From Combretum micranthum (taxonomy: Eukaryota > Streptophyta > Magnoliopsida > Myrtales > Combretaceae), in contig JAMXBD010002492.1 of the NCBI GenBank assembly GCA_024138025.1, positions 124,001 through 188,000 of the forward strand: 64,000 bases of DNA, written 5' to 3'. Each line of letters starts with the position of its first letter. Positions within the stretch are counted from its first letter, which is position 1. Under the pieces are notes generated by a model that saw nothing but the letters and a program-made list of their open reading frames with translations, made no database searches and had not been told where the DNA came from. The position numbers were made by a program, and so were the translations under genes. Below, one piece after another: positions 682-38,779 of this stretch.

Positions 682-1352
682 TGAAATATCCTAACCTTAT
701 GTGCATGCTTTGAATTTCGTTTTTGTGTGTATGAATATATATTGATTGATTAAATTATTTATGAAATTGTATTAGATATTTAGTTAATAACATATGATGT
801 GTTGGCATGATTTACTAATTGTGTTGTATTTCATATGTGTTAATATGATCTAGAGTTGCATTGTAATGTTTGTTAGTGTAAATTAAGCTCAAGTTATTAA
901 ACAAATCAACCCAAACCATGCAGATTTATTTTGTGAAGCCCAAATACCTAATCAAGCCCAAATCAAAGCCTTTACTTTTCCTAAGACAGATGCCTCAAAA
1001 GTTAAGACAAAATTTCATGATAATTATCTAAATAACTTTGCAAAACACAAAGTGAAAAAAAAAAAGAAAAAAAAAAGCCAAAACCGATAGCCCCACTAAC
1101 AAAGGCCAACCCAGATTTTCTTCTCAAAATTTCACAAATAATCAATCCAAAGTGCATAACAAGACTTTAATACCAAGTTAAAGCTTCGTAAGGTAAAGCT
1201 TTGCATGTTTGTGTGATCTTTTATGTATTTGCTTTCTTTATGAACATGAAATCTTTGTTTTAATGTTTCCTATATAATTTGTACGTAGTGTTAGTAATCT
1301 GAGTTAGTTTATAGATTTAATTAGATCCTTGAAGATGTGATAGACAAACCTC
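682..1352 (+). mobile_element. 5' quarter of a family-A (chromovirus) LTR, plus orientation
   Basis: The segment begins with TGAAATATCCTAACC, the same terminus that follows the polypurine tract at 11427-11440, and tracks the LTR at 11441 for about 670 bp (shared landmarks: the AAGCCCAA region, the TGTTTGTGTGATCTTTTATG block, GATCCTTGAAGATGTGA). Homology stops near 1345 and the DNA then reads into the end of another copy of the same LTR in opposite orientation (TGTAAGGACC at 1353). It is therefore a truncated LTR fused to an inverted copy. No polypurine tract precedes it, so the 5' boundary may itself be a rearrangement point. Confidence 0.75.
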
Positions 1353-1729
1353 TGTAAGGACCAACACGACTCATATATAAAGCTAAGCGTGTACAGTCCC
1401 CAGCCACATGTAATCTTGCAGTATTACATGTAAAGCTGTTTTCAAGGAAAGAGTTTATATAAATTGTTTGTCTAACTATGTCATATGAACATTTTTCAAA
1501 AACTACTCATCAAGAGGATTATCATACATAATTTTACAAAGACATACTTTTTTTTTTTTTTTGAATTCATAATAGAAAACCTTATACATATACATATTAT
1601 AAACCAAGGCTTGAGATAAAGCCTTAACAAAATACATAAAACTTTGAAAACATCTTTAAGAAAAGATACATTATCTTTAAAATACTTTTCCTAATCTATT
1701 ACAAAATGGTCATCAATGAGATCGAGTCC

Positions 1730-2491
1730 TTAGTCCTCCTACTCATCCAACAAATCCTCAAAATTAGTCCCATAACCCAATTGAGAATAAAGCTCGTCCT
1801 CATCAACATCTAAAATAGGAAATTATGAGTCAAAGGCCCAGTAAGCAAGTAACACAAGTAAATACAAAGTGACAAGCACAATTAGGCTAAATGTAATGTA
1901 ACAAACAATAGTTTAATTACCTTTAGTTAAGTAAACATATCAGCATTGGAGCATTTGAACGCCGATTTCAATCCAAGGAAGTCTAGTGGTCTTGAGTAAC
2001 AATGGCTACTTACGGAGTTGATATAGCCAGCTCGAATATTCATATCCCCTATATCTAACTGAAAAAGAGAAATTAGCATCCTCTAGGGATCACAACCATT
2101 TTTTATCTTTACTTAACTTAATCCATAATATCACTTAGTGTAATCGGTCCCATAAACGTAAACTAAATCATTTATTTCTTCTTAAGAATAAGTAAACGTT
2201 ATGCCAATACTGTTAGCCCTATCAACTACTCGCTGAGCCACTTATGAGCATCACTGCATCATGATTAGGGTGGCCTAAGCGCCTAACTACCATGTTAACT
2301 TTGTTAATAAGGTTACTGCTCTCTGAACCGGATTCAACGGCACACGCACAAACAATTCAAACACTTTTGTAAGTCATCTTTAATTAAAGTTGATTTGGAA
2401 TATGCTTATCCTAGCATCCAACAACCAAGTTACTATGTACCTGAGATATCTGACAAAAGACTAGGAGGTATACTCAACTGAGAAGAATAAT
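1730..2491 (-). pseudogene. LTR-embedded two-exon small ORF, family A copy 1
   Basis: Minus strand. An acceptor-like tract ending TTATAG at 2492 precedes a 51-nt exon (2491-2441). It ends CTCAG and is followed at once by a donor-like GTACATAG. The 631-nt intron-like span (2440-1810) ends TATTTTAG. The terminal exon runs from 1809 to the TAA at 1732-1730. Reading exon 1 with phase 1 gives a serine-rich open frame of about 16 codons. The terminal exon reads DVDEDELYSQLGYG and then a tail matching the other copies. One codon is broken: the conserved Trp (TGG) is TAG at 1739-1741, so this copy is a pseudogene. No protein family is recognised. The exon structure is inferred from splice-like signals and from the same layout in families B and H. 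Confidence 0.45.
1991..2014 (-). promoter_or_regulatory. Intron hairpin, family A copy 1 (partly decayed)
   Basis: On the minus strand the arms CGTAAGTAGC and GTTACTCAAG pair at eight of ten positions (one G-T) around a 4-nt loop. It lies 181 nt upstream of the terminal acceptor, the same spacing as in the other copies. Function unknown. Confidence 0.45.
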
Positions 2492-2679
2492 CTATAAGAA
2501 AAGAATTCAATTCATATAAAATTAAACATTAATCACAAACAATTCCTAAGCTCTACATTCAATACAAAACTTGAATAAAATTCACATTAAATCATAATTT
2601 GGCATTTACAAACACATATATAATACATTCATTTATTTTAAATTTTGAAAATAAAATTATTTTATTTTATATATGTTTT

Positions 2680-2990
2680 TTTTTTATAGGAAGCACGAGT
2701 AGGTACATGGCTGTGCACTTACTCGTTTTCTTTATACAAGAAATATACCCAAATCATATCGCCGTGTATCACACCATGTTTCACATATACTCAAAACCCT
2801 TCGATGATCAGTGAGAAGCATGGCTTAATAGAAGTAGCTGTGTTCCAATCATGCATCACTTAAAAGCCAATTTCAAAAATCATCTGAGAGAAATATGACG
2901 AGATGGACGTGGTCATGTTCTATCCATGCTATCAAAATCTTCTTCTTTGCTTAATACATAGTGAGAAGCACGGCTAGATACATTCGCTCA
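2680..2990 (-). repeat. Palindromic word array in family-A LTR
   Basis: Several imperfect copies of a unit containing AAGCACGAG or GAAGCACGGCTAG, short palindromic arms and CATGTTC or GTGTTCC-like ends recur at roughly 70-90 bp spacing. This is the counterpart of the clearer array at 12263-12690. It sits upstream of the split small ORF in LTR orientation. Confidence 0.5.
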
Positions 2991-5594
2991 TGTTCCTTCT
3001 ATGTTTCTTTTCAAAAACAGAGCAGTACATTTCAAAACTTAAACATCTAATTTTACTTTCACTAACTTACATACACCCAACCTATACACTTTCAACTCTA
3101 AATATGCATAAACTTCACATTCCCAACTTCAAACAACTTCCCAATCAGCATTTGAATACTTCACAAGCATCACCAACTCATTCATCAACTCAAAACAACT
3201 TCAACACATTCCACAACTTATCTATCACATCTTCAAGGATCTAATTAACTCTATAAACTAACTTAGATTACCAACACTAAATACAACTTATACAGGAAGC
3301 ATTAAAACAAAGATTTCATATTCATAAAGGAAATATATAAAAGATCATATAAACATGCAAAGCTTTACCTTAAGAAGGTTTAACTTGGTTTTAAATTCTT
3401 GTTATGCACTTTGGATTGATTTTTTTTTTCTTTTTGGCCAAAGCACTTTGGATTGATTATTTGTGAAACTTTAAGAAGAAAATATAGGGTTTGCCTTTGT
3501 AGTTACGGTAATTGGTTTTGGTCTTTTTCTTTTTTTTTTTTTTAACTTTGTGTTTTGAAAAGTTATTTAGATAATTATCATGAAATTTTGCCTTGACCTT
3601 TTGTAATTCCCCTAATTTTATAATAACTCGATTATAATAATTATTACAAATATAATATAGAATTATGAAGAACTATAATTAAAAGTTACAAAAATCACTT
3701 CTAATTTTTCACAAATTTAAATTATTAAAGTATGAACAAATAATGATTGATAATAAATTGATCATTATTGTAAAATTCAAAATCAGTTTTCTTAAGTTTA
3801 ATAGTTAGAAAATAAATCATATATTCATTAAAATAATAAAACAATAATTTTTGAATTAATCTTAATATTTTACAACCTTAAAATATCTTTAGAAAATTTA
3901 TAAATACTAATTATTAAAATAAATAAATTCTTAGAACAAGATTCTACGACACGAATTAATAACTCAACAAATAATTGTAGTTGACTTTAAATTTCAATTA
4001 TAATAAAAGACGACTAATTTCTAGAACCCATTAGTTATAAAAGGATAGTTTAAAAATAAATCATTAGAATTATCAAATATGCAAAATAATAAGAAATTGA
4101 TCAATACTAAAGAATCTAAACCTTAATTAAGTATTTGAATTATACTAAATATTGGTTGGAAAATTCTAAGTCTATAGAGAATAAAATCCTAATTTAACAA
4201 TTGTAACTCGAAAGTATTTATAACTATTAAAATCAATAGAATAGTAAATATAAAATAGATAATAAACACAAGACCAAATAAAACTCTAGAATAAACCTAT
4301 GAGTAATAATAAACTCATTTATAACTTAAAAACCCGAATAGAAGATTTTTTGACCTTAATAGATACAAAACACAAGATTTTGTATCTTGAGCAAATAACT
4401 CAAGATATAATTAAAAGTAACCGTAAAATTCAAACCCGATAAAAGAAACATCTTTATAGAACATATTGATCATCAAATGATAACTAAAGTATGGACCGCT
4501 AATATTATAAATGTGCGATAGAAACAAAAACAGATCCATATCTAATATTCTAGAATTCAAAAAAATATTTGCATCGCACCATTATTTTAGTTAGGAAATT
4601 CTAAACCTATAGGAACCAAAATCCTAATTTAGCTTACCGAACCAAGAAAATCTTAATTGTGTAAAGTTTAAACTCAAATGTAATCTAGAAAATTTGTAGA
4701 AACTTTATATGAAATTTTAGAGATAGAACGCTCAAATAATTGACATATTTTTTCCCGTTTAACTTAATAAACTAACCCAAAGCTAAGATAAATAATTAAC
4801 TAAATAATATTATAATATTTTTCCCTTCTTTTTCGGTGCAATTTGGCAAGGAATTTACGGTTGAGATTTCATGGATTTGCCCCTTCTGAAAACTTCATAT
4901 AATTTGCTCCAATTATATACATTGAAGTCAAACATCTCAACAACCAAAGCTAATCAAATTTGGCCATATGGATAGCTCAATTAATGCATTAAGAAATCAT
5001 GCAAGACAAATAAATTTTTCATGGAGAAATTAGTTCTCCTCTTTGCTAGAAATGATGAAACAGCTTCCTTCATTTGCTATATTTATATCTCTTAATGAAC
5101 AGCAAACCAAACCGTTCACATACCCTAAAACAAGCAACACAAAACATACCAAACCAATTCAAAACAACAACATAAATCAACTTAAAACACACAAACTCAT
5201 CTTCATAAACAATTCTATCAAGACATCAATCAAGCTTAGGAAACAAGAAACAAAGATAAGTTAAATTCATTTTTAGCTAGTAATCACACAAAACATTGGT
5301 TTAACTAATGTTATACTAATCTTAGGATCGGGTCAGACCAAGGGAAAAAGTATAGCATCATCCCATCAGCTCAAACAAGGTAAATTCACTTCGAACCATA
5401 GTTATATTTATTACATATATAGAAACAATGAAGAATTATGTGTAGAATGATTTTTAGATGATATATATAGAGATATATCACGTTTAATGCTTTATGAAGC
5501 ATGTAAAAACACTTAGAAGTAGTTTAAACACAAGTATAATACATATATAATATAAGAAAATTGAATTTAGAATCAGAGAAAAATGGAGAAGACA

Positions 5595-8072: not shown

Positions 8073-8385
8073 GAGGCAGCTATCTTAGGAAAGGTAAAGG
8101 CTTCGACTTGGATTAGGTGTCTGGGCTTCACAAAATCTGCCTAGTTTAGGTTTGATTTTGTTTAAATACTTGAGCTTAATTTGTACTAACAAACATTACA
8201 ATGCAACTCTAAATCATGTTAACACATTCTAATATGCAATACAATAAAATAATTAAATCATGCTAACACATCATATTTTATTAACTAAATATCTAATACA
8301 ATTCCATATATAATCAATCAATCAATATATATTCATACACACACAAATGAAATTCAAAGTATTCATAGAAGGTTAGAATATTTCA
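8073..8385 (-). mobile_element. Family-A LTR, minus orientation, proximal 310 bp
   Basis: On the minus strand the LTR begins at 8385 with TGAAATATTC directly after the polypurine tract and runs to the solo-LTR H insertion. It completes the LTR fragment at 1353-3601. Confidence 0.8.
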
Positions 8386-8402
8386 CTTTTCCCTCCTTTA
8401 AG
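8386..8402 (-). other. Polypurine tract of minus chromovirus
   Basis: The minus strand reads CTTAAAGGAGGGAAAAG immediately before the LTR start TGAAA. It is near-identical to the tract at 11427-11440, as expected for plus-strand priming next to a 3' LTR. Confidence 0.85.
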
Positions 8403-10340
8403 AAATTTTATCCTCGAAACTTACCTCATTCACTGTTCAAACAGCTCTGGATACTTCTGTCTTGTAAAACTCTCTATCTCCCAAGTGGCTTCCCTTTTTG
8501 ACTGACCACTCCATAATACTTTTACAAAGGGAATAGTCTTCTTTCTCAAAACCTTGTCCATTCACCCAAAATTTTGATAGATTTCTCAACTATAGTTAGA
8601 TTAGGCTGAATCTCTGGTTGATTAGCATTGATGATAGTATTTAGATCCGATACACATTTCCTTAATTGTGATATGTGAAAGACATTGTGTACATCTAACA
8701 AATTTGGGGCAAAGCTTATTTGTAAGCCAATGGTCCAATTCTTTCCATTATTTCAAATAGACCTATATGTCTCATATTCAACTTTCCTTTAACACCAAAT
8801 CTAAATACTCCTTTAGTCGGATATACCTGAAGAATACATGATCGCCACTTTCAAACTCAAGAGATCTTCATCTTGTATTTGCATAACTTTTATACCTATC
8901 CTGAGCTGCTTTATCCTTCGTTTAACAATCTAGATTTTATCAATGGCTTATTGTACTAAATTTGGGTTGATCAATGCTCTTTCACCTACGTCACCTAGTG
9001 TAGAAGAGATCTACACTTTCTTCATATAGAGCTTCATAATTAGCCATTTGTATGGTTGCTTGATAACTGTTGTTGCACGCAAACTCAACCAAAGGCAAAC
9101 GGTCATCGCATCACCCTCCAAAATCTAATGCAAATGCTCTTAACATATCTTCTAGGATTTATATAGTTTTTTTCTGACATTCCGTCTGTTTGTGGATGAA
9201 AGACAGTAATAAATTGAAGACGGTTACCTAATGATTCATACAAGCTTTTCCAGAATCGATTGAAAAATCTTGAATCTCTATTAAACACAATCGATATTGG
9301 TATGCCATGTAACCTTACTATCTCTTTGATGTAGATTTATGCCATTTTCTCCGGTGGACATCTAACTCTCAAAGAAATAAAATGTGTGGATTTCTTCAAT
9401 CTATCAACTATTACCAATACCACTTCATGTTTAGCTAATGTTCTTGGCAAAGCAGACACAAAATCCATAGTTACATTCTCCAATTTTTACTCTGGTATTG
9501 GTAATGGTTGCAGTTCAGCTCTGGCTCTTTGATGTTCAATTCTTATTTATTGAATGTCAAGCACTTTGACAAAACGATATACTTTGAACTTTTGTGATTC
9601 ATGTATATCATGCATTTCTCGCCAAAAAGATAATGTCTCTATAGCTTTAGGGCCATAACTATTGCTACCAATTCTAGATCATGTATAGGATAGTTCTTTT
9701 CATGTGGTTTTAGCTATCTTGATTCGTAGGCGATAACTTTACCGTCTTACATAAGAACACATCCTATATCTTGAATCAAAGCATTAATATAGATCACAAA
9801 CTCTTTCTCATTAACTGGCAAGGCTAGCACTGGAGCCGATGCTAAGCATTCCTTCAATTCTTGAAATCTTCTTTCACATTTTTCGTCCTACACAAACGTA
9901 AAATGTTTTTGTGTCAATTTCATTAATGGAGATGCAATTTTCAAAAATCCTTCAACATACCTTCTATAGTAGCGCACCAATCCTATGAAACTTCCCACTT
10001 TTGTAACATTTGTCGGTCTTTGCCATTCTATACAACTTTAACTTTGTCTGGATCAACTGACCTTCCATCCTTTGATGTCACATGCCCCAAGCAAGCTACC
10101 TATTTAAGCCAGAACTTGCACTTACTAAATTTTGTATATAACTTCTTTTCCCTAAGTCTTTATAGTACTAATTTCAAATGTTCCTCATGTTCTTTCGATC
10201 TCGAGAATATATGAGGATGTCGTCAATGAATACTATGACAATCAAATCTAAATAATTCTTAAACACTCAATTCATAAAGTCCATAAAATCAGCTAGAGCA
10301 TTCGTTAAACCTGAATGACATAACTAGAAATTCAAAGTGT
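8400..10340 (-). pseudogene. pol: Chromovirus pol remnant: RT, RNase H, integrase, chromodomain (minus)
   Basis: Translated in pieces on the minus strand with many stops and shifts. About 10340-9990 gives the reverse transcriptase palm and thumb (YEFLVM, then FSKCKFWL and a LGH motif). About 9960-9550 is RNase H (FVIYINAL..., HEKNYPIHDLELVAIV). About 9487-8700 is the integrase core (MDFVS, then FNRDSRFFNRFWKSLYESLG and FHPQTDG at 9288-9170). Near 8540-8430 is a C-terminal chromodomain-like stretch (TIPFVKV, EATWE). RT, RNase H, integrase and chromodomain in this order is the Tekay/Del chromovirus layout. The RNase H end joins the integrase core directly, so the zinc-binding N-terminus of integrase is missing. 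Protease and gag are absent. Its 3' LTR lies at 8385 and below. Confidence 0.85.
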
Positions 10341-11424
10341 AGAAATGGGATAATGTAACTATGGATTTTGTGTCTACTTTGCCAAGAACATTAGCTAAAC
10401 ATGAAGTTGTATGGGTAATAGTTGATAGATTGATGAAATCTGCACATTTTATTCTTTTGAGAGTTGGATGTTCATCAAGAAAATAGCACAAATCTACATT
10501 AAAGAAATAGTGAGGCTACATGGCATATCAGTATCGATTGTGTTTGATAGAGATTTAAGGCTTGTCAATCGATTTTGGAAAAGTTTACATGAGTCATTGG
10601 GTACTTGCCTTTAGTTTAGTATTGCCTATCATCCACAAACAGATAAACAGTCGAAAAGAACCATTCAAGTTCTGGAAGATATTTTAAGAGCATGTGCATT
10701 AGATTTTGAAGGATGATGCGATAACCATTTGCCTTTGGTTGAGTTTGCATACAATAGTAGTTATCAAGCAACCATACAAATGGCTCTTTATGAAGCTCTG
10801 TGTGGAAGAAAGTGTATATCTACTCTATATTAAGATGAAGTGGGTGAAAAAGCTTTGATTGACCCAAATTTAGTATAACAAGCTATTGATAAAAATCCAT
10901 ATTGTTAAACAAAGGATGAAAGCAACTCAGGATAGGTATATAAATGATTCAGATACAAGATGAAGATCTCTTGAGTTTGAAAGTGGCGATCACGTATTCC
11001 TTAGGGTATCTTTGACTAAAGGATTATTCAGATTTGGTGTTAAAGGAAAGTTGAGTTCAAGATACATAGGTCCATGTGAAATATTAGAAAGAATTGGACC
11101 ATTGGCTTATAGATTAGCTTTGCTTCCAAATTTATCAGATATACACAACATCTTTCATATATCACAGTTAAAGAAATGTGTATCGGATGCAAATACTATC
11201 ATTAATGCTAATCAACCAGAGATTTAGCTTAATTTGACTATAGTTGAGAACCTATTAGAATTCTGGACCAAATGAATAAGGTTTTAAAAACGATCCCTTT
11301 GTAAAAGTTCAATGGAATGGTCAGTCAGAAAAGGAAGCCACTTGGGAAACAGAGAGTTATATAAGATAGTAGTATATAGAGCTATTTAGGCAGTAAATGA
11401 AACAATTTTCGAGGATAAAACTTC
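10341..11424 (+). pseudogene. pol: Chromovirus integrase and chromodomain remnant (plus)
   Basis: The plus strand starts abruptly at the integrase core (ATGTAACTATGGATTTTGTG, the NVTMDFV motif). It continues through FDRDLRLVNRFWKSLHESLG, HPQTD, FAYNSSYQA and MALYEALCGRK. The integrase C-terminal domain (KGLFRFGVKGKLSSRYIGPC, 11012-11227) follows, then a chromodomain (KVQWNGQSEKEATWETE, about 11300-11365). Stops and shifts are frequent. It is homologous to 9487-8400 in inverted orientation, giving arms of about 1.1 kb around an 853-bp spacer. The polypurine tract and 3' LTR follow directly, so this is the true 3' end of a second copy. The rest of pol is missing at the 10340/10341 junction. Confidence 0.85.
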
Positions 11425-11426
11425 TT

Positions 11427-11440
11427 AAAGGAGGGAAGAG
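11427..11440 (+). other. Polypurine tract, plus chromovirus
   Basis: AAAGGAGGGAAGAG directly precedes TGAAATATCC. It defines the 5' end of the family-A LTR. Confidence 0.9.
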
Positions 11441-12262
11441 TGAAATATCCTAACCTTTTATGTGTGATTTTAATTTTCATTTGTGTGTATATGTGATTTG
11501 TTTGATCAATATATAGAATGGTGTTAAATGTTTAGTTAGATAAAATTTAATGTGTTTATATAAATTAGTATTGCATTGTAATGTTTGTTAATGTAAATTA
11601 AACTCAAGTTTTTAAACAAAATCAAACCCAACCCAAGTAGATTTTTGTGAAGCCCAAACCCAAGCCCAAACACCAACTCCAAGCCTAAGACCAAGCTTTT
11701 ACTTTTCTTAAGATAGCTACCCCAAAAGTCAATAAAGCAACTGTAGGACAATAACGAAGCAATTTTTTTAGAAAAATCCCAAATGCAACTAGACCCTACT
11801 CAATGTTTTGTATCAATTGCAATATGCCCATCATTTGATCCAAATTTCCTTTATAAATTCACCAAGAGCGCCTTTCAATTCATCATCTACAAATTAAATA
11901 AGCTTAAGGTGAAGCTTTACATGTTTATATGATCTTTTATGTTTTTCTTCATGAACATAAAATCTCTATTTTAATGTTTCCTATGTGAGTTTTATGTAGT
12001 GTTGGAGATCTAAGTTAGTTTATAGAGTTAATTAGATCCTTGAAGATGTGACAAATAAGTATGGAATGTGTTGAAGTTGTTTTGAGTTGATGAATGAGTT
12101 AGTAGTGTTTGTGCAGTGTACAAATGGGGGTTAAGAAGTTGTTTGAGGTTGGATTGTGATATGCATGTTTGAAGTTGATAAGTATATGTGTTGAGTGTAT
12201 ATAGGTATGTAAAAGTGAAAATTTGATGTTTAATTTTCAATTTATACATGCTTTATTTTCAA

Positions 12263-12690
12263 CAAGAAACACGAAGAGAAACATTGGTCATGTTCAAGTC
12301 GTGCATCTCACTGATTTTGAAAATTTAGTTATTTGAGAGAAACGCGAGGAGAACACGACTGTGCTTCTCATTGTGCTTTGAATGAAGGAGAAGATGTGAC
12401 AGCACGGGTGGAGCACAGTGTCGTGCACCTAACTGTGCTTCTCTCTGTTTTCAAAATGAATTGGGTTATATTAATACACGAATGGAACACGGCTACATCT
12501 ATCGAGTTGTGCTTCTCTCTGGTTGTTAATGTGTTTCATGTAATGAAGAAACACGGCATGGCCTACCTAGCCATGCTTCTCCCTAATCTTTGAAGGGTTT
12601 TGTGTATGTGTGATGCATGGTGCAATGAATTGGGCGTGTTTCTTGTATAAGGGAAACACAGGTAAGTGCACGACTGTGTACCTGCCCATG
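12263..12690 (+). repeat. Palindromic word array, family-A LTR
   Basis: Six imperfect units at about 60-80 bp spacing share GAAACACG or GGAACACGAC on the left and GTGCTTCTC or ATGCTTCTC on the right. Each is close to self-complementary. The clearest is GCATGGC, 7 nt, GCCATGC near 12554-12574; another has AGGTA and TACCT arms near 12650-12676. Similar arrays with different words occur in other LTR families of this window. Confidence 0.75.
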
Positions 12691-12893
12691 CTTCTTGTAA
12701 AAATAATAATAATAAAATAAAATAATTTTATTTTCAAAATTTAAAATAAGGGAATGTATTATATATATGTGTGTTTAAATGCTAAATTATAATTTAATAT
12801 GAGTTTTAATTTAAGTCTTGTATTAAATAAAGAACTTAGAAGTTATTTATGAGTAATACTCCATTTCATGTGGATTGAATTCTTTTCTTACAA

Positions 12894-13656
12894 ATTATTA
12901 TTCTCAGTTGAGTATATCTCCTAGTCTTTTACCAGACATCTTTAGTTACGTAGTAACTTGATTGTTGGATGCTAGCATAGGCATATCCTAAGTCGATTCT
13001 AATTAAAGATGACTTAAAAAGTGATTGAGTTGTTTAAGTGTGTGCCATTGAATCCAGTCTAAGAAGCGGGAACTCTGTTATTGAGGTTAATATGGTAGAT
13101 AGGCGCTCAAGCCACGCTAGTCCTAATGCAATGACACTTATAAGTGGCTAGTGGGTAGTTGATAGGGCTAACGATATCGGCATAACGTTTACTTATTCTT
13201 AAGAGGAACTAATATAATTCAATTCATGTTTATAGGGCTGGTTGAATTAAATGATACTATGGATTAAGTTAAGTAAAGATGAGAAATGGATGTGACCTAT
13301 AAAGGATGCTACTTTCTCTTTTTTAGTTAGATATAGGAGATATAGGTATTCGGGCTACCTATATCAACCTCTTGAGTAGCTGCTGTTACTCAGGATCCCT
13401 AGATTTCCTTAGATTGAAATCGAAGTTTGAACACTCTAGTACTGATTTGTTTACTTAGCTAAAGATAAATTAAATTATTGGTTGTTGCATTGCATTTAGT
13501 CTAAGTGTGCTTGTCACCTTGTATTTGCTTATGTTTCTTGCATACTGAGCCTTTAGCTCATAATTTATTATTTCAGGTATTGATAAGGACGGGTTCTATT
13601 CTCAGTTGGGTTGTGGGGTTGATTTTGAGGATTTTCTGGATGAGTGGGAGGACTAA
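12894..13656 (+). pseudogene. LTR-embedded two-exon small ORF, family A copy 2
   Basis: Same layout as the minus copy. A pyrimidine tract ends TTACAA (acceptor AG mutated), followed by a 52-nt exon. The donor position reads TTTAG then TTACGTAG (GT mutated). An intron-like span of about 630 nt follows, then the acceptor TTATTTCAG at 13576 and a terminal exon to the TAA at 13654-13656. The terminal exon reads GIDKDGFYSQLGCG then VDFEDFLDEWED. An in-frame TAA at 13561-13563 just above the acceptor shows the frame does not extend upstream, which fits an exon boundary. Exon 1 has one extra nucleotide relative to the minus copy. The splice sites are broken, so it is called a pseudogene. Confidence 0.5.
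13371..13394 (+). promoter_or_regulatory. Intron hairpin, family A copy 2
   Basis: Arms CTTGAGTAGC and GTTACTCAGG pair over all ten positions (two G-U) around the loop TGCT. It lies 182 nt upstream of the terminal acceptor. Confidence 0.6.
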
Positions 13657-14743: not shown

Positions 14744-15498
14744 ATTATTCTTCTTAGTTAAGTTACTTCTTAGTCTTTTACCAGATATCTCAATTACGTA
14801 GTAACTTGGTTGTTGGATGCTAGGATAGACATATCCCAAATCGATTTTAATTAAATGACTTAAAAGTGTTTGAATTGTTTATGCGTGTGCCGCTGAATCT
14901 GGTTTGAGGAGCAACAACCCTGTTAACGAGGTTAACATGATAGTTAGGCGCTTAGGAAATCCTAGTCATGATGCAATGATAGTTATAAGTGGCTCAGCAG
15001 GTAGTTGATAGGGATAATGACATCGACATAACATTTACTTATTCTTAAGACGAAATAATATGATTTAGTTCACGTTTATGGGACCGATTGAGTAAGTGAT
15101 ATTATGGATTAAATTAAGTAAATATGAGAAACGGTTGTGACCCCTAGAGGACACGACTTTCTCTTTTGCAATTAGATATAGGGGATATACGTATTCGGGA
15201 TGCTTATATCAGCCTCCTGAGCAGCTACTGTTACTCAGGACTATTAGATTCCCTGAGATTGAAATCGGAATTTGAACACTCCAGTGTTAATATTTTACAT
15301 AATTAAAGATAATTAAATTATTGTTTGTTACATGTATTTAGCCTAAGTATTTTTGTCACTTTGTATTTGCTTGTATTACTTGTGTATTGGGCCTTTGGCT
15401 CATAATTTTCTATTTTAGATGTTGATGAGGATGAGTTCTATTCTCAATTGGGTTATGAGATTGATTTTGAGGATTTTCTGGATGAGTGGGAGGACTAA
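14744..15498 (+). pseudogene. LTR-embedded two-exon small ORF, family A copy 3
   Basis: A good acceptor (TTTTATTACAG, ending 14743) opens a 50-nt exon. The donor is lost (CTCAA then TTACGTAG), and the exon frame has CAG changed to TAG. The terminal exon follows TATTTTAG at 15418 and is intact: DVDEDEFYSQLGYE, IDFEDFLDEWED, TAA at 15496-15498. It is the best preserved family-A version of the terminal peptide and the reference used for comparison with family B. Confidence 0.5.
15216..15239 (+). promoter_or_regulatory. Intron hairpin, family A copy 3
   Basis: Arms CCTGAGCAGC and GTTACTCAGG, loop TACT; nine of ten pairs form (one C-A mismatch). It lies 179 nt upstream of the acceptor at 15418. 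Confidence 0.6.
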
Positions 15499-16207: not shown

Positions 16208-16587
16208 TGTTATGTAAAGACCCGACCCTCTAAATCCCGAGACTTAGAGTATCGAGTCCCCAACCACATATAACGTTTTCACATTATATGTAAGGTTGTC
16301 CTAAAACTAACAGTTTATGAAAATTGTTTGATCAAAACCACTATAACTTTATAAAGAACTTTTAACAAATACAAGATTGCTAATAAAAGCAATGTATACA
16401 TACATTTACATTATATATACATTGTTTAGTTTCAATACAAGACACTACAAAATTACATGTTTTCTTAAATCAAAAAGAATCCTAGAGGATCTTAAGGTCT
16501 TTATAAAAATAGGCTTATCTATCAAGCCTTCTATACATAACTTTTCCCTTGGCAAAAATTCTTCCAAAAGCTCAGGGTGTTTGAGTC

Positions 16588-17390
16588 CTATTCGTCCCAC
16601 TCATCCAAGAATCTCTCGAAATTGGACCCATAGCCTAAATCATCATAAAACTCGTCTCCAATACCTGCAAAGCAGCAAAAGTGAGCCAAAGGCCTAGTAC
16701 ACAATAACAAATGCAAATACAAGTCATCAAGCCAACATAAGTCCAATGAAATGCATTAGAAGACAAGTGATTATCTTTATTAAATTTTCTTTCGCAAATC
16801 AACAGGAGGGTATTCAAACCCCGGATCACGCTTTGGGAATTCAGGGATCCTGAGTAACAGCAGCTGCTCAGGGGGTTGATATAAGCAATCCGAATAGTTA
16901 TATCTCCTATATCTATTTCATGAAGATAATAGCTTCATTTAGGGTTCAAAAACCGTTGCCCGACTCTACTTAAACTCAGTCCATAACATGAGCCTATTTC
17001 ACAAGTTCCCATAAACCTTGAACTAAATCATGGTATTTCTCTAAGTTTAAGCAAACGTTACTCAGATACTATTCTCCCTATCGACTACCCACTTAACCAA
17101 AAGAATTGCTATTGCATCATAGCGTACCATTGCATCATGGTAAAGTCATTGCATCATGACTTGGTTAAGTGCCTAACTAACATGTCATTACATCATGACA
17201 GGTTTGCTGCTCCTCTAACCAAATTAAACAATGTAATAGACATCCAATTCATTCAAATATTAAGCCGAATCAATTTAAGTCATATTAGGAATGCCTATTC
17301 CTAGCAAATATCAAACAAGTTATTACGTACCTGAACCCGATAGTATATTACTATGATCTCTCAGTGAAGAACTAACCGAAGAATCCTTAA
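16588..17390 (-). CDS. LTR-embedded two-exon small ORF, family B (open in both exons)
   Basis: Minus strand. The acceptor CCTATTTCAG opens a 60-nt exon (17390-17331) ending TTCAG, followed by the consensus donor GTACGTAA. The intron is 666 nt (17330-16665) and ends CTGCTTTGCAG. The terminal exon runs 16664 to the TAG at 16590-16588. Phase-1 reading is open throughout: a serine-rich stretch of 19 codons, then GIGDEFYDDLGYG and SNFERFLDEWDE. Against family A copy 3, 13 of the last 21 residues are identical and six of those 13 use different synonymous codons. No initiator Met is present in these exons, so an upstream exon must exist if it is translated. The function is unknown, and expression and splicing are untested. 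The LTR is solo, so this copy may be inert even if the ORF mattered in the parent element. Confidence 0.45.
16849..16872 (-). promoter_or_regulatory. Intron hairpin, family B
   Basis: The minus strand reads CCTGAGCAGC, TGCT, GTTACTCAGG. It lies 184 nt upstream of the terminal acceptor. It matches family A although most flanking sequence differs. Confidence 0.6.
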
Positions 17391-17699
17391 CTGAAATAGG
17401 AATATCAAAATAATCAATAAATAAATATAGATTCCTCATTCACAAATATATACATATATATCTATATCACAATCCTAGATCAATTGTACAAGGAAATTCA
17501 TTAAACTTTGCATAGAGTCTAAATATCAAATTCATGCATAAAACATGTTTATTTAACTCATATATACAATTAATAAAAGAAATTCAAATAATTTAATACA
17601 AAGTCATAATAAAGCATTTAAACATCCTATTATATCTAGATTGCTTAACAAATACTTAATTGATCATATATCAAACTTCGAAAATTTTGAAAAGTTTTT

Positions 17700-18120
17700 A
17701 AAATTCAAAAGTGAATGCCGACGCTTTAAACCGGTGTTCAACACTATGAAAATCAACACTGTCAACGCTGGCAGCGCTCAAGGGTACGCCGGCTGCCTTC
17801 ATTCTACGCTACTGCTTTGAGCCGATGTAAAATGCAAATCCAAATTTTCCAAAATTTCCCAGAGGTACATACCGACAGCGTACATGGATACGCTGGCAGC
17901 CTTTGACCCTACGTCGGCAGCCTTTGACCCTATGCCGACAGCTAACCTCTCAAATTGCCGGTGTACGTTCTGAAGAACAAACGCTGACAAAATTTATTGT
18001 AAAAGCCGGCGGTGTTGCAAAGCGGCGTTAAAAGATCTACTTCTGTTTGGCTCCAACGCTGCCTCTACGCCGGCGGCGTTGAATTCCCAGATGCCTGCGT
18101 ACGTTCAAAACAGACCTATT
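17700..18120 (-). repeat. GC-rich word array in LTR B
   Basis: At least eight occurrences of ACGCTGGCAGC, CGCCGGCTGCC, GCCGGCGGTGTTG or related words, spaced about 30-60 bp and often mutually complementary. The GC content is far above the surroundings. The words resemble those in LTR H (5595-5890), suggesting a shared or exchanged module. Confidence 0.65.
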
Positions 18121-19096
18121 CGACAGAACACAAATCCTCTGTTTTCCATTTTACAACTTTTCAACCTATAACACTTTTAAATCTTCTTCAACTTCATTTT
18201 TAACTTCATATACTCACTCCTATCTACACTTCTCAATCCTAGCAACTCAAAACATGAAATTAACACATTTGATCACTTCTAATTCCACTTCCATTCATTC
18301 TCAACTTTCCTACTCAAACTATCTTCATTTCCTCCCAACACTTCATATCACTACTACAATACATAAACAAACTCACACACTCACAAAACACATTCCTAAC
18401 TAATCTCAATACATGAACAAGCAATTTAGATAGCATTTAAACTCATCCTATTCAAGATCTCACATAACCACTACAAGAAATGAAAAAAAAAAAACAAAAG
18501 TCATACTTAAATCAACTCACATGTATATGCCTTGTCTTGGGAAGAACTTTGATTTTCAAAGCTTGATATTGTTCTTGACTTGGACTTGGAGTTTGGAATA
18601 AAGGAAGAAGAGAAAAGAAAGAAAGAAAAAGGAAAATTCGTATGAAAAGGAGGGCTGCCCAAAAAGGAGTCTAATTGAGCAAAATTAAGTCTTAAACATA
18701 TCCCAAATTTGACTTTTAAGGCATATGCAACTTTAGTTTGCATTTGGGGTGTATTTGAGCTTCATTTGAGGTTCATTTGGGGCTTATTTAGGCCTAATTA
18801 CTAACTTAATTACTAAGAACTTCTATCAACTAACCTTAAGCAAAACCAAAATTGATTTTATAAATCTAAACTTAACTTAACACCTTAATGTATAAAAGAC
18901 ACAATTAATAATTATACTACACACACATTAATACATATAAAAAAAATATTAATTTCACTACATATGCAAAATAACACATTTAGACTATTAGCAACACAAC
19001 TATCATAATCATCATGCTCATTCAATTCAACAATTAAGATAAATAAACAAACACATGGAAATTAAATAGAATTTAAATTTAGATAATTTCATGTTA

Positions 19097-22411: not shown

Positions 22412-22837
22412 TATATAAAACAATCTTTCTTGATTTATACACTTTCATGCCTATCTATCAATCAATCTTAGATCTTGGACAGTATTTCAAGCACATAGTG
22501 ACTTGTGTGTTGCATGCTTAAGATATATAACCTAAAATGAATTAATACTCCAAGATAACTTAAATAATTGATTTATTAAGTGTGCTTAGTTTTTATTTTG
22601 GTTTAGGCCAAGGAACAACAATGTTACTAGGCGGTGCTAATATGGTAGTTAGATGCTTAGACCATTAAGGATAGCTCGATAGGTAGCTGATAGGAGGCAT
22701 GATAACATTTACTTATAGTAAGAAAGAAGTAATATAGTCTAATTCACAGTTAAATTGCATATCTTATAGACTAAAATAAGTCAAGATTAATTAGATTCAT
22801 ATCGGAGGTAAAGATATTCGACCTATCTTCATCAACC

Positions 22838-22861
22838 CTTAAGTAGTTTTTCTTACTTAGG
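22838..22861 (+). promoter_or_regulatory. Intron hairpin, family C
   Basis: CTTAAGTAG, a 6-nt loop, then TTACTTAGG: nine pairs including two G-U. Relative to A and B the fourth pair is A-T instead of G-C, with both sides changed. It lies 179 nt upstream of the acceptor at 23040. Confidence 0.55.
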
Positions 22862-23040
22862 ACTCTCAGGTTTCCAACTATGTTGTTAAAGTGTGAGAGC
22901 TTTATAATTGATTTGTTGAACCTAAATTAAAGATCTAAATAGTTGGTTGTTACATTTACATTTAGATTATATACAAGTGATCATATCATGTGTGCTTATG
23001 TTGCCATTGTACTAGATCCGACTCATTTTTCTCTTTTCAG

Positions 23041-23198
23041 GTGATAATGAGTATGATGATGATCCTTATGATTACCTAAGGTATGGTATGGATATTGATG
23101 AGTTAGTTGATGGAGCGACCAGGGACGTTGGATTTGTTATGTTTCTTTCTAAGGTTTTAATATACCTATTTAGACTTATGTTTTTAACGTCAACTTGA
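23041..23198 (+). other. Terminal exon-like ORF, family C
   Basis: It follows the strong acceptor CTCTTTTCAG (ends 23040). In phase 1 it reads GDNEYDDDPYDYLRYG and MDIDELVDG, then runs on past the family-A stop to a TGA at 23196-23198. The acidic start, Tyr, Leu, Tyr-Gly, Asp and the Leu-x-Asp tail align with the A and B peptides, but the FLDEW core is not retained. Either a diverged homologue or a coincidence of composition. Confidence 0.35.
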
Positions 23199-23992
23199 TT
23201 CTAAGCTCATGGTTTGCGTTTTGGATTTATTAGTTACTCATATTTATACTTGATACTTTCAAGCTGCTAGATACTCAATAGCATTTTTGAGATACTTGAT
23301 ATTGATATCATATTTTGAGACTTATATATGTATGACCCATTCACAGGAGTAGCCTTTTTGGAAATCTTTTGCAAAATTGGTTTTTTGCTACAATATCAAA
23401 TGTTTTTAAATCTAATTGAATAATTTCATAATCTAAAATTTGTAGGAAACAATCACAGTAAACTATTAGTTTTAGATAATTAATTAGAATAATAAAATTT
23501 ATAGGTTAAATAATAGGAATGTAATGATTGTTAGTACTTGAAAGATTCTCGTGGGAGATTCCTATGCCTATTGCTATACTATTGTTTTGATCGGTATACT
23601 TGTGTAATTGATCGCTGAGTAGTATTAAGGATAGCATATTAATGTTAACACATTGTGTACTATATAATAGTTTAATATGCATCATAACTATGCAACAAAA
23701 CATTTTTTTCCCAATAATTTGGGTACGACAATTAACATTACATTTATATAATAATATTAAACTTGTTGATTTCATAAAATACTAATTAGTAATATAATAC
23801 GACACATAAAATTTTCAAAATTTCATTGTAAGGATTAATTATTAAATGTCGGTATACATAGTAATTAAATTAATAAAGGATCATCCTATTGATACTTAAT
23901 AGATATACCAAAACTAATAATAAATTATTTTATCATCTCATTATTTTTTTTGCTAAGGTGGTACTACCTACTTATGGCTCATATCAATTAAG

Positions 23993-23996
<4 letters not shown>

Positions 23997-24048
<52 letters not shown>
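23997..24048. repeat. (AG)n microsatellite
   Basis: About 26 uninterrupted AG dinucleotides, 120 bp left of element D. The rest of 23400-23996 is AT-rich and unassigned. Confidence 0.97.
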
Positions 24049-37173: not shown

Positions 37174-38779
37174 TGTAAGGTATTCTGATATTGAATAGGT
37201 TTCTAATTAAGTTTTTAATTTGAGAAATTATTATTACTTTTTATAAAAATTATAGAGGAGTGCTATTTATTTATCTATGATTCAATTTTTTCAAAACATA
37301 TAAAATTTGATTTGTTTGTAAAATAAGTTTCCTTACTTGTTTCTAAGTTTCATGCACAAGTCCCATCAGGTGAGTACAATTTGATTAGAAAACTTTTAGA
37401 CTTGAAGGTCCATAAGGAAATTGAAGCAAAGGTATTTATTAAATGACTGGTTATAGTTATCCAAGTTCATAAAAAAATAAAATAAGATTACATTGAAATT
37501 CTTTCATGCAAATCTCAAAATGTCCATATTTTGCATAATGATATCTAATTGAGTTATCACGGTAGCATTCATCCCCATCGTACCACCAACGGAACTTGAA
37601 ATGTTAATGAATGAGCTGTGAAACCCAGTACACAACGACACAAGCACACATATGCATGTCACACGTTTCTAATCTAAACTAGCAACTACAATTTAGGATA
37701 TTTAATTTAAAGTCCATAAACAATGTATCTCCAGTGTCTTATAAATGCCAACACACACAAGAGTACTTATGACTACAACCAAACAAAAAAGGCAGGGTTC
37801 CTTAGTAAATTATGCATCGAAGAGGAGGGTTTGATAAGTCTCCAAATTTCCTTAAAAGAAAAAAGGGAAATAGTCTTGTCTGGGTCATCTCTTCACATGC
37901 TGCCACCAAGGAGCATGGTCCATTGTAATGCTTTATACAGGGTCCTATAACACTATATAACTCATTACAACTTCCTATCTACTTCTAGTTAGTTGCTTGA
38001 TCTAAAAAATTTCCCTATCAACTACTTGTCAAGCTTAACCATGCATTCGTGGTGGCCTAAGTACCTAAACTACCACAGCATATTGAAGTTGTGATTAGGC
38101 TTGCAACCTAGTTTGAGGGTGCCACTTGTGTAGTATGTAGCCAAGCAGCAAACAATACTCAATTAAACTGAGTTTAAATTCTTAGTCCGATTATTAATAC
38201 TACCCTAGAAAGCAACACACAATTACTGCATACCTATCATTTGGTTTGAGCTTTCAATTTCATTTCTAAAGCTTAATATCCAATAACTATTCATAATTGA
38301 AGTTAGGAATTAGTTTAACGCTTACTACCTTTATTTCATTTGTGTTGTTTGTTACGTTTAGGTCACTTTATTTTAACCATATCCACTCAAGGATAATGTT
38401 TAAAGGATCATTGGTTTTATTTGGCCAAGTTATCTATTTAATTATATAGGTTAGGGTCGGTTTTGGGGCTTAGGTTAACCAATCCTTGATAGGCTATATT
38501 TTGTGGGTCTTGATTCTTAACCTTTCAAGAATTGATTTGCAAACTCCACTAACCCTGCATAGTCCTTAATGTTCCATTCCAATTATTAAGTTTGAATTAC
38601 TTTAGTTTGCGTGAGGCATTTTTGAGCTCGATTATTTCAATGATGTACATCATGAATGGAGTATTAGTATTTAATAAATTTGTGTGTTTAAAGGTCTTAG
38701 AAGGTTACTTGAGGTTAAGGAAGAATCGGGTCAAGTTTCATGAGATTTAGGTGAGAATTGACGAATTGTGAAGGGGCTA

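Follow-up and report, generated by a model that had tools for sequence, protein, structure and literature searches.

The 64,000-nucleotide (nt) stretch of Combretum micranthum analyzed here (contig JAMXBD010002492.1, positions 124,001 to 188,000; hereafter the window) is plant DNA densely packed with nested elements bearing long terminal repeats (LTRs), and our subject is a short terminal exon that lies inside such LTRs. Its reference copy belongs to family B: the LTR in question, read directly on the minus strand (16213..19091, TGAAAT...TTTACA), is a solo one, 2879 bp in length, and is flanked by a 5-bp target duplication, TGTTA (16208-16212 and 19092-19096); "family" denotes here our own grouping of sequences by eye, with no formal clustering. 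On the same strand, this LTR holds a leader exon 1 (18521..18640, its start being approximate, with the end ACAT|GTGAGT), an exon 2 of 60 nt that we judge to be a non-coding leader exon (17331..17390), an intron 2 of 666 nt that is kept across families (16665..17330) and the terminal exon (16588..16664), encoding the peptide (G)IGDEFYDDLGYGSNFERFLDEWDE followed by the stop TAG. Exon 2 has the donor CAG|GTACGT at 17330 and the terminal exon the acceptor TTGCAG; both junctions are in phase 1 and the frame is open across the two exons. Re-reading of the B sequence returned the exon coordinates, phase and open frame of an original prediction for this DNA.

The same prediction placed an acceptor, a small exon and a donor in each of the A and B copies, which is correct for B and incorrect as stated for family A, whose copies in the window are partly decayed. 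On the minus strand, copy A1 has an exon 2 of 51 nt (2441..2491) with GTACAT as donor and a terminal exon in which a Trp codon has become TAG (1730..1809). The terminal exons of A2 (13577..13656) and A3 (15419..15498), both on the plus strand, are open; in these two copies exon 2 is shifted and the GT of its donor is changed to TT, and A2 is also without the acceptor AG of exon 2. A further copy of the conserved LTR region, absent from the original prediction, defines family C (22480..23111, plus strand), with the terminal exon DNEYDDDPYDYLRYGMDIDELVD (23041..23111, plus strand) from which the EW end was lost by a small deletion; since C copies elsewhere end in EWSN or EWRD, it is the window copy that lost its end. 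Family D (37562..38236, minus strand) represents the conserved region in very diverged form (E 5.6e-12); for this family 41 matches were listed, mostly 73-78% identical, with YDGDECY...YGHFEICMKEF as candidate terminal-exon peptide. The insertions A3, B, C and D of the window have close counterparts (94-98%) on a second contig (G000:C570:752620-788894), which would be an allele, a homeologue or a segmental duplicate.

Comparison of A3 with B confirms to the letter the codon bookkeeping of the original prediction: 13 of the last 21 residues are common, 6 of these 13 through differing synonymous codons. Within family A, the differences are spread evenly over codon positions, in keeping with the neutral-looking decay that had been proposed. 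Nucleotide identity between A and B is 0.63-0.71 in the exon versus 0.61-0.63 in the intron and falls to 0.37-0.40 just past the stop; between A and C, identity is 0.50-0.56 in the exon versus 0.56-0.58 in the intron, so that at this level the exon is scarcely better conserved than the intron. Local tests of the exon frame in A-B sets gave P values of 0-0.07. Six-frame scans of the region were not significant, either with A and B alone (P 0.26-0.41) or, in the form of a maximum-segment scan, with C added (P 0.18-0.46). Family C, which was unknown to the author of the prediction, was used as a test set, and in its ranking the exon frame took ranks 1, 2, 3 and 5 among 1010 gap-poor windows in six frames. 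Joint ranking of A, B and C gave a slightly higher Z to an antisense window (3.36) than to the exon window (3.31), and therefore the 64-kb stretch alone is not decisive.

We searched the genome of C. micranthum (1.86 Gb, 5442 contigs) with the window copies, listing 40 matches among 6775 first-look candidates for B, 40 among 10703 for A3 and 42 among 2295 for C; with C as query, the listed matches extended to other families, at 65-77% identity. The exon was recognized by a peptide profile, with at least 15 bits, in 27 of 30 A-query loci, in each of the 28 B loci fetched and in 24 of 30 C-query loci, counts that include the window copies and their duplicates on contig C570. Further groups were recognized (E-K, M and later N), with example peptides such as DEYYDDLGHDTNWEEFLKELDD, NFYDYIGYGIDYEELFDEL, DESYASLGYGPDFEDFLEEFED and DEFYTSMGYGSDFEEFLEDWKE, and most of 23 copies have a terminal-exon acceptor of the form GGCTCAT/C, T-rich stretch, CAG|GT in phase 1. 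When 12 families were tested together the selected frame was clear, one of the three frames being selected with a protein-like pattern over codon positions. These tests indicate that the terminal exon within the LTR is a coding sequence under selection, and they support the selection on the peptide between families that had been claimed. In the peptides, aromatic and large hydrophobic residues are spaced out among acidic ones, a resemblance to activation motifs that was judged by eye and is no more than resemblance; the three window peptides had no match in Pfam. Among ten B-type LTR starts (L093-L102), pol lies directly upstream only in L094, the others resembling, by eye, solo LTRs or having unrelated flanks.

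Exon 2 ends in AG|GT in at least one copy each of families A, B, C, E, F, H, I, J, M and N, with an altered donor in A2, A3, A_L018, A_L022, C_L070, K and the window copy of C. An AG is found exactly 60 nt upstream of this end in 11 copies from six families (A, B, C, E, G and I), and the exon measures 51 nt in one A sublineage and 48 nt in H, J and N. The proposal that exon 2 is coding sequence is not upheld, because eight copies of 60 nt have no coding signature, third positions being the least variable (309/324/266, P 0.43), and the frame is interrupted by stops in E, J, M and some copies of A and C. Nor is an upstream Met exon inside the LTR, for the candidate in B is broken in six of seven other copies and exon 2 has an in-frame ATG in only 3 of 28 copies, with an out-of-frame ATG in 9 of 28, including the young H element. 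Exon 1 ends in GAG|GTAAGT or similar; in B its last ~50 nt are nearly identical across seven other B copies and no ATG lies within 178 nt of its end, and in J and N it ends with TGA-G in phase 1. Three young elements have no ATG in the 200 nt upstream of the exon-1 donor (2.2, 2.2 and 1.4 being expected) versus 8-10 ATG in the 119-160 nt downstream of it, a pattern that fits a scanned leader with an intron behind it. Among five families checked for the terminal exon (exon 3), only N has an in-frame ATG before Tyr, the first ATG of A, H and J being out of frame. No conserved in-frame AUG was found across the LTR exons; translation of the frame must therefore begin outside them or at an unusual start. 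In both families, the intron presumed to come first in the LTR contains G+C-rich short repeats, of CACGG type in A (12240-12700) and of GCCGGC type in B (17700-18130).

Within the region, conservation is highest inside the intron (16950-16826, with A-B identity of 0.73-0.80 in 50-nt windows). This part of intron 2 contains two adjacent hairpins on the minus strand, H1, with a 10-bp stem and a 7-nt loop (16878..16904), and H2, with weaker support (16849..16872), and equivalents of both are present in A1-A3 and C. In each 10-bp stem, 45 of 50 cells are paired across the five window copies versus at most 41 in 300 column shuffles; this pairing of 90% compares with 29-46% when the partner is slid and was matched by 11 of 500 letter shuffles. 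With 22 copies of H1, 198 of 220 cells are paired (83.8% when shuffled, none of 2000 shuffles reaching the observed value, although shuffles ignore relatedness), and T-A/A-T and G-C/A-T exchanges are seen in the stem. The pairing of H2 in seven copies was not above shuffles (P 0.30). By analogy with the BARE element of barley, the hairpin might have a role in dimerisation or packaging.

Sequence tests assign the host elements to chromodomain-bearing Ty3/gypsy elements (chromoviruses), in which the integrase would carry a C-terminal chromodomain. The window has a chromodomain piece on the minus strand (8433..8561; PF00385, E 1.3e-4, 22.3 bits, below the gathering threshold of 25.1) and, on the plus strand, the integrase C-terminal piece of a neighbouring element (10964..11224; PF24626, E 9e-25), a Tf2-1-like SH3 integrase tail. 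The LTR begins right past pol and the polypurine tract, and a young element shows zinc knuckles (by eye) and the primer site TGGTATCAGAGC, which we take to be of tRNA-Met type. Just past the pol stop, before the TTTCGAGGA hairpin and the polypurine tract, lies a donor-like GAG|GTAAGT (8420..8427, minus strand), and donor-like sites of the form AG|GTAAG, GTGAG or GTAAA occur between the pol stop and the TTTCGAGGACGAAA hairpin in five of six pol ends (window 8420-8427, L094, L103, L104 and L105). Rearranged nested elements are also seen in this part of the window, with head-to-head 3' pieces of pol forming an inverted repeat (8350-11476) and reversed LTR pieces at 683-3601.

We consider it fairly probable that the terminal exon truly codes for protein, is under purifying selection in at least 12 families of chromodomain-bearing Ty3/gypsy elements of this plant and supplies a protein of the element with its acidic, aromatic C-terminal tail. 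At the level of sequence, the selected frame and the kept acceptor (CTCAT/C, T-rich tract, CAG|GT, phase 1) are evident, as are the leader exon 1 of young elements, with a good donor and no ATG, and the conserved hairpin between exons 2 and 3. Transcription of the LTR would start upstream of exon 1, and exon 1 (and 2) would form the leader of spliced mRNAs, the unspliced RNA retaining the hairpin and serving as genome. Because the LTR exons have no conserved in-frame AUG, the tail would be joined from an internal coding exon, Gag- or Pol-derived, that is spliced to the acceptor of the 3' LTR and yields an accessory protein or an alternative C-terminus. The tail itself may bind a host partner, plausibly by an activation-type motif; its D/E-rich stretch with spaced F, L and W presumably resembles plant AHA/EDLL activation motifs, hence our guess that the partner belongs to transcription. 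A more ambitious scheme, to which we give somewhat less than even chances, is that in a clade of plant chromoviruses the LTR holds the C-terminal exon of one of the element's proteins, splicing to the 3' LTR adds an acidic host-recruiting tail to such a protein and the hairpin intron marks unspliced RNA as genome, so that one splice choice would set both coding and packaging and a solo LTR would carry a ready acidic-tail exon.

Several observations weigh against this favored reading. The upstream coding exon was not found in the pol ends and the parts of one N gag that were searched; the latter have no phase-1 AG|GTAAG and offer just a pair of poor T|GTAAG sites, at Cys-Lys codons. The pol-end donor lies beyond the pol stop, is missing in one of six cases (the plus-strand copy near 11400) and varies in phase, being 2 in three cases and 1 in two. 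Among older A copies, three of seven have an ATG at 100 nt or less from the exon-1 donor, and family N has its in-frame ATG at the very start of exon 3 (GT-ATG-GAT-GAC). Pairs with double changes in H1 are not above shuffles in 22 copies (P 0.44, these shuffles again ignoring relatedness). Moreover, the lengths of exon 2 (60, 51 and 48 nt) are all multiples of three and its phase-1 frame has no stop in any of the three young elements, as would suit a coding exon. The lengths and frame of exon 2 and the exon-3 ATG of N also suit a self-contained LTR micropeptide, close to the original prediction, for which translation of spliced exons 1-2-3 would begin at a non-AUG codon in exon 2, at an AUG in exon 3 (as in N) or in a further exon: N has no ATG in the 200 nt before the exon-1 donor or in exon 2, so that the first AUG of its spliced RNA would be in frame, and all parts are kept in a solo LTR such as B. 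Given the missing coding signature of exon 2, the scarcity of in-frame ATG there, the confinement of the exon-3 start to N and the TGA-G end of exon 1 in J and N, we regard this micropeptide as unlikely.

The good acceptor and stop, together with first-look candidates in the thousands, could also be accommodated by a gene trap, the LTR exon being spliced onto host transcripts and its peptide selected as a harmless tail with a stop that spares the host; this is quite improbable, inasmuch as selection of one specific acidic motif across many families is not expected of a mere stop signal. That RNA structure or regulation, and not a peptide, accounts for the conservation of the sequence would agree with A-B conservation of the intron about like that of the exon and with the best intronic block being a hairpin, but the single selected frame, its protein pattern over codon positions and the drop of A-B identity at the stop leave this idea with very little probability. 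Chance similarity combined with shared descent of a few copies could account for the non-significant scans of A, B and C in the window; the out-of-sample ranking of family C and the 12-family test oppose it, and we judge it refuted by the genome-wide set, with a probability close to nil.

Plant LTRs are usually read as promoters and terminators, in which only control sequence and no genes are expected. In animal retroviruses, LTR-encoded proteins are known, namely the superantigen of mouse mammary tumour virus, and Nef and the foamy-virus Bel/Tas that overlap the 3' LTR. The likeness to these lies in a protein code within the 3' LTR, perhaps reached by splicing and accessory to gag-pol, whereas the retroviral proteins have longer frames with their own AUG and the plant exon has ~25 codons and no conserved AUG. 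The host elements resemble chromoviruses of the Tekay/Del kind, with which they share a chromodomain piece, the primer site TGGTATCAGAGC, the TTTCGAGGACGAAA motif before the polypurine tract and long LTRs; an LTR exon of this kind is absent from the papers searched, as far as their titles and abstract openings tell. In the excerpted account of BARE1, a Ty1/copia element of barley, spliced and unspliced RNA pools have separate roles in translation and packaging, with two start sites, and only unspliced RNA is packaged (PMC3735527), a division similar to that proposed here for other plant elements; there, however, the intron begins at the end of gag and yields a Gag-only RNA, and the excerpt mentions no coding exon in the LTR (PMC3735527). 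Additional open reading frames (ORFs) of plant LTR retrotransposons likewise give extra element proteins of uncertain role (PMC7264820; Retand, PMC11963269; Retrosat2 ORF0, PMC3485330), but ORF0 is found upstream of gag-pol, the Grande gene has its place in the 3' internal region, and none is named inside the LTR in the portions consulted; a term search of the review on additional ORFs found neither "within the LTR" nor "in the LTR" (PMC7264820). Going by titles and abstract openings, none of the papers searched describes a coding exon inside plant LTRs, in agreement with the novelty claimed originally for an LTR-encoded protein of this kind. If the LTRs of abundant families do contain a selected coding exon, then solo LTRs, commonly held to be inert scars, are able to bring in an exon whose good acceptor lets an acidic tail be added to a transcript. 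The exon also offers a concrete target for asking by what means plant chromoviruses produce additional proteins and keep mRNA apart from genomic RNA.

Elsewhere in the window, long direct repeats form the pairs 24271-25652/29958-31350, 33594-34479/45698-46571 and 34758-35354/50301-50896, which are probably LTRs of other elements, and a long run of GA dinucleotides extends from 23992 to 24047.
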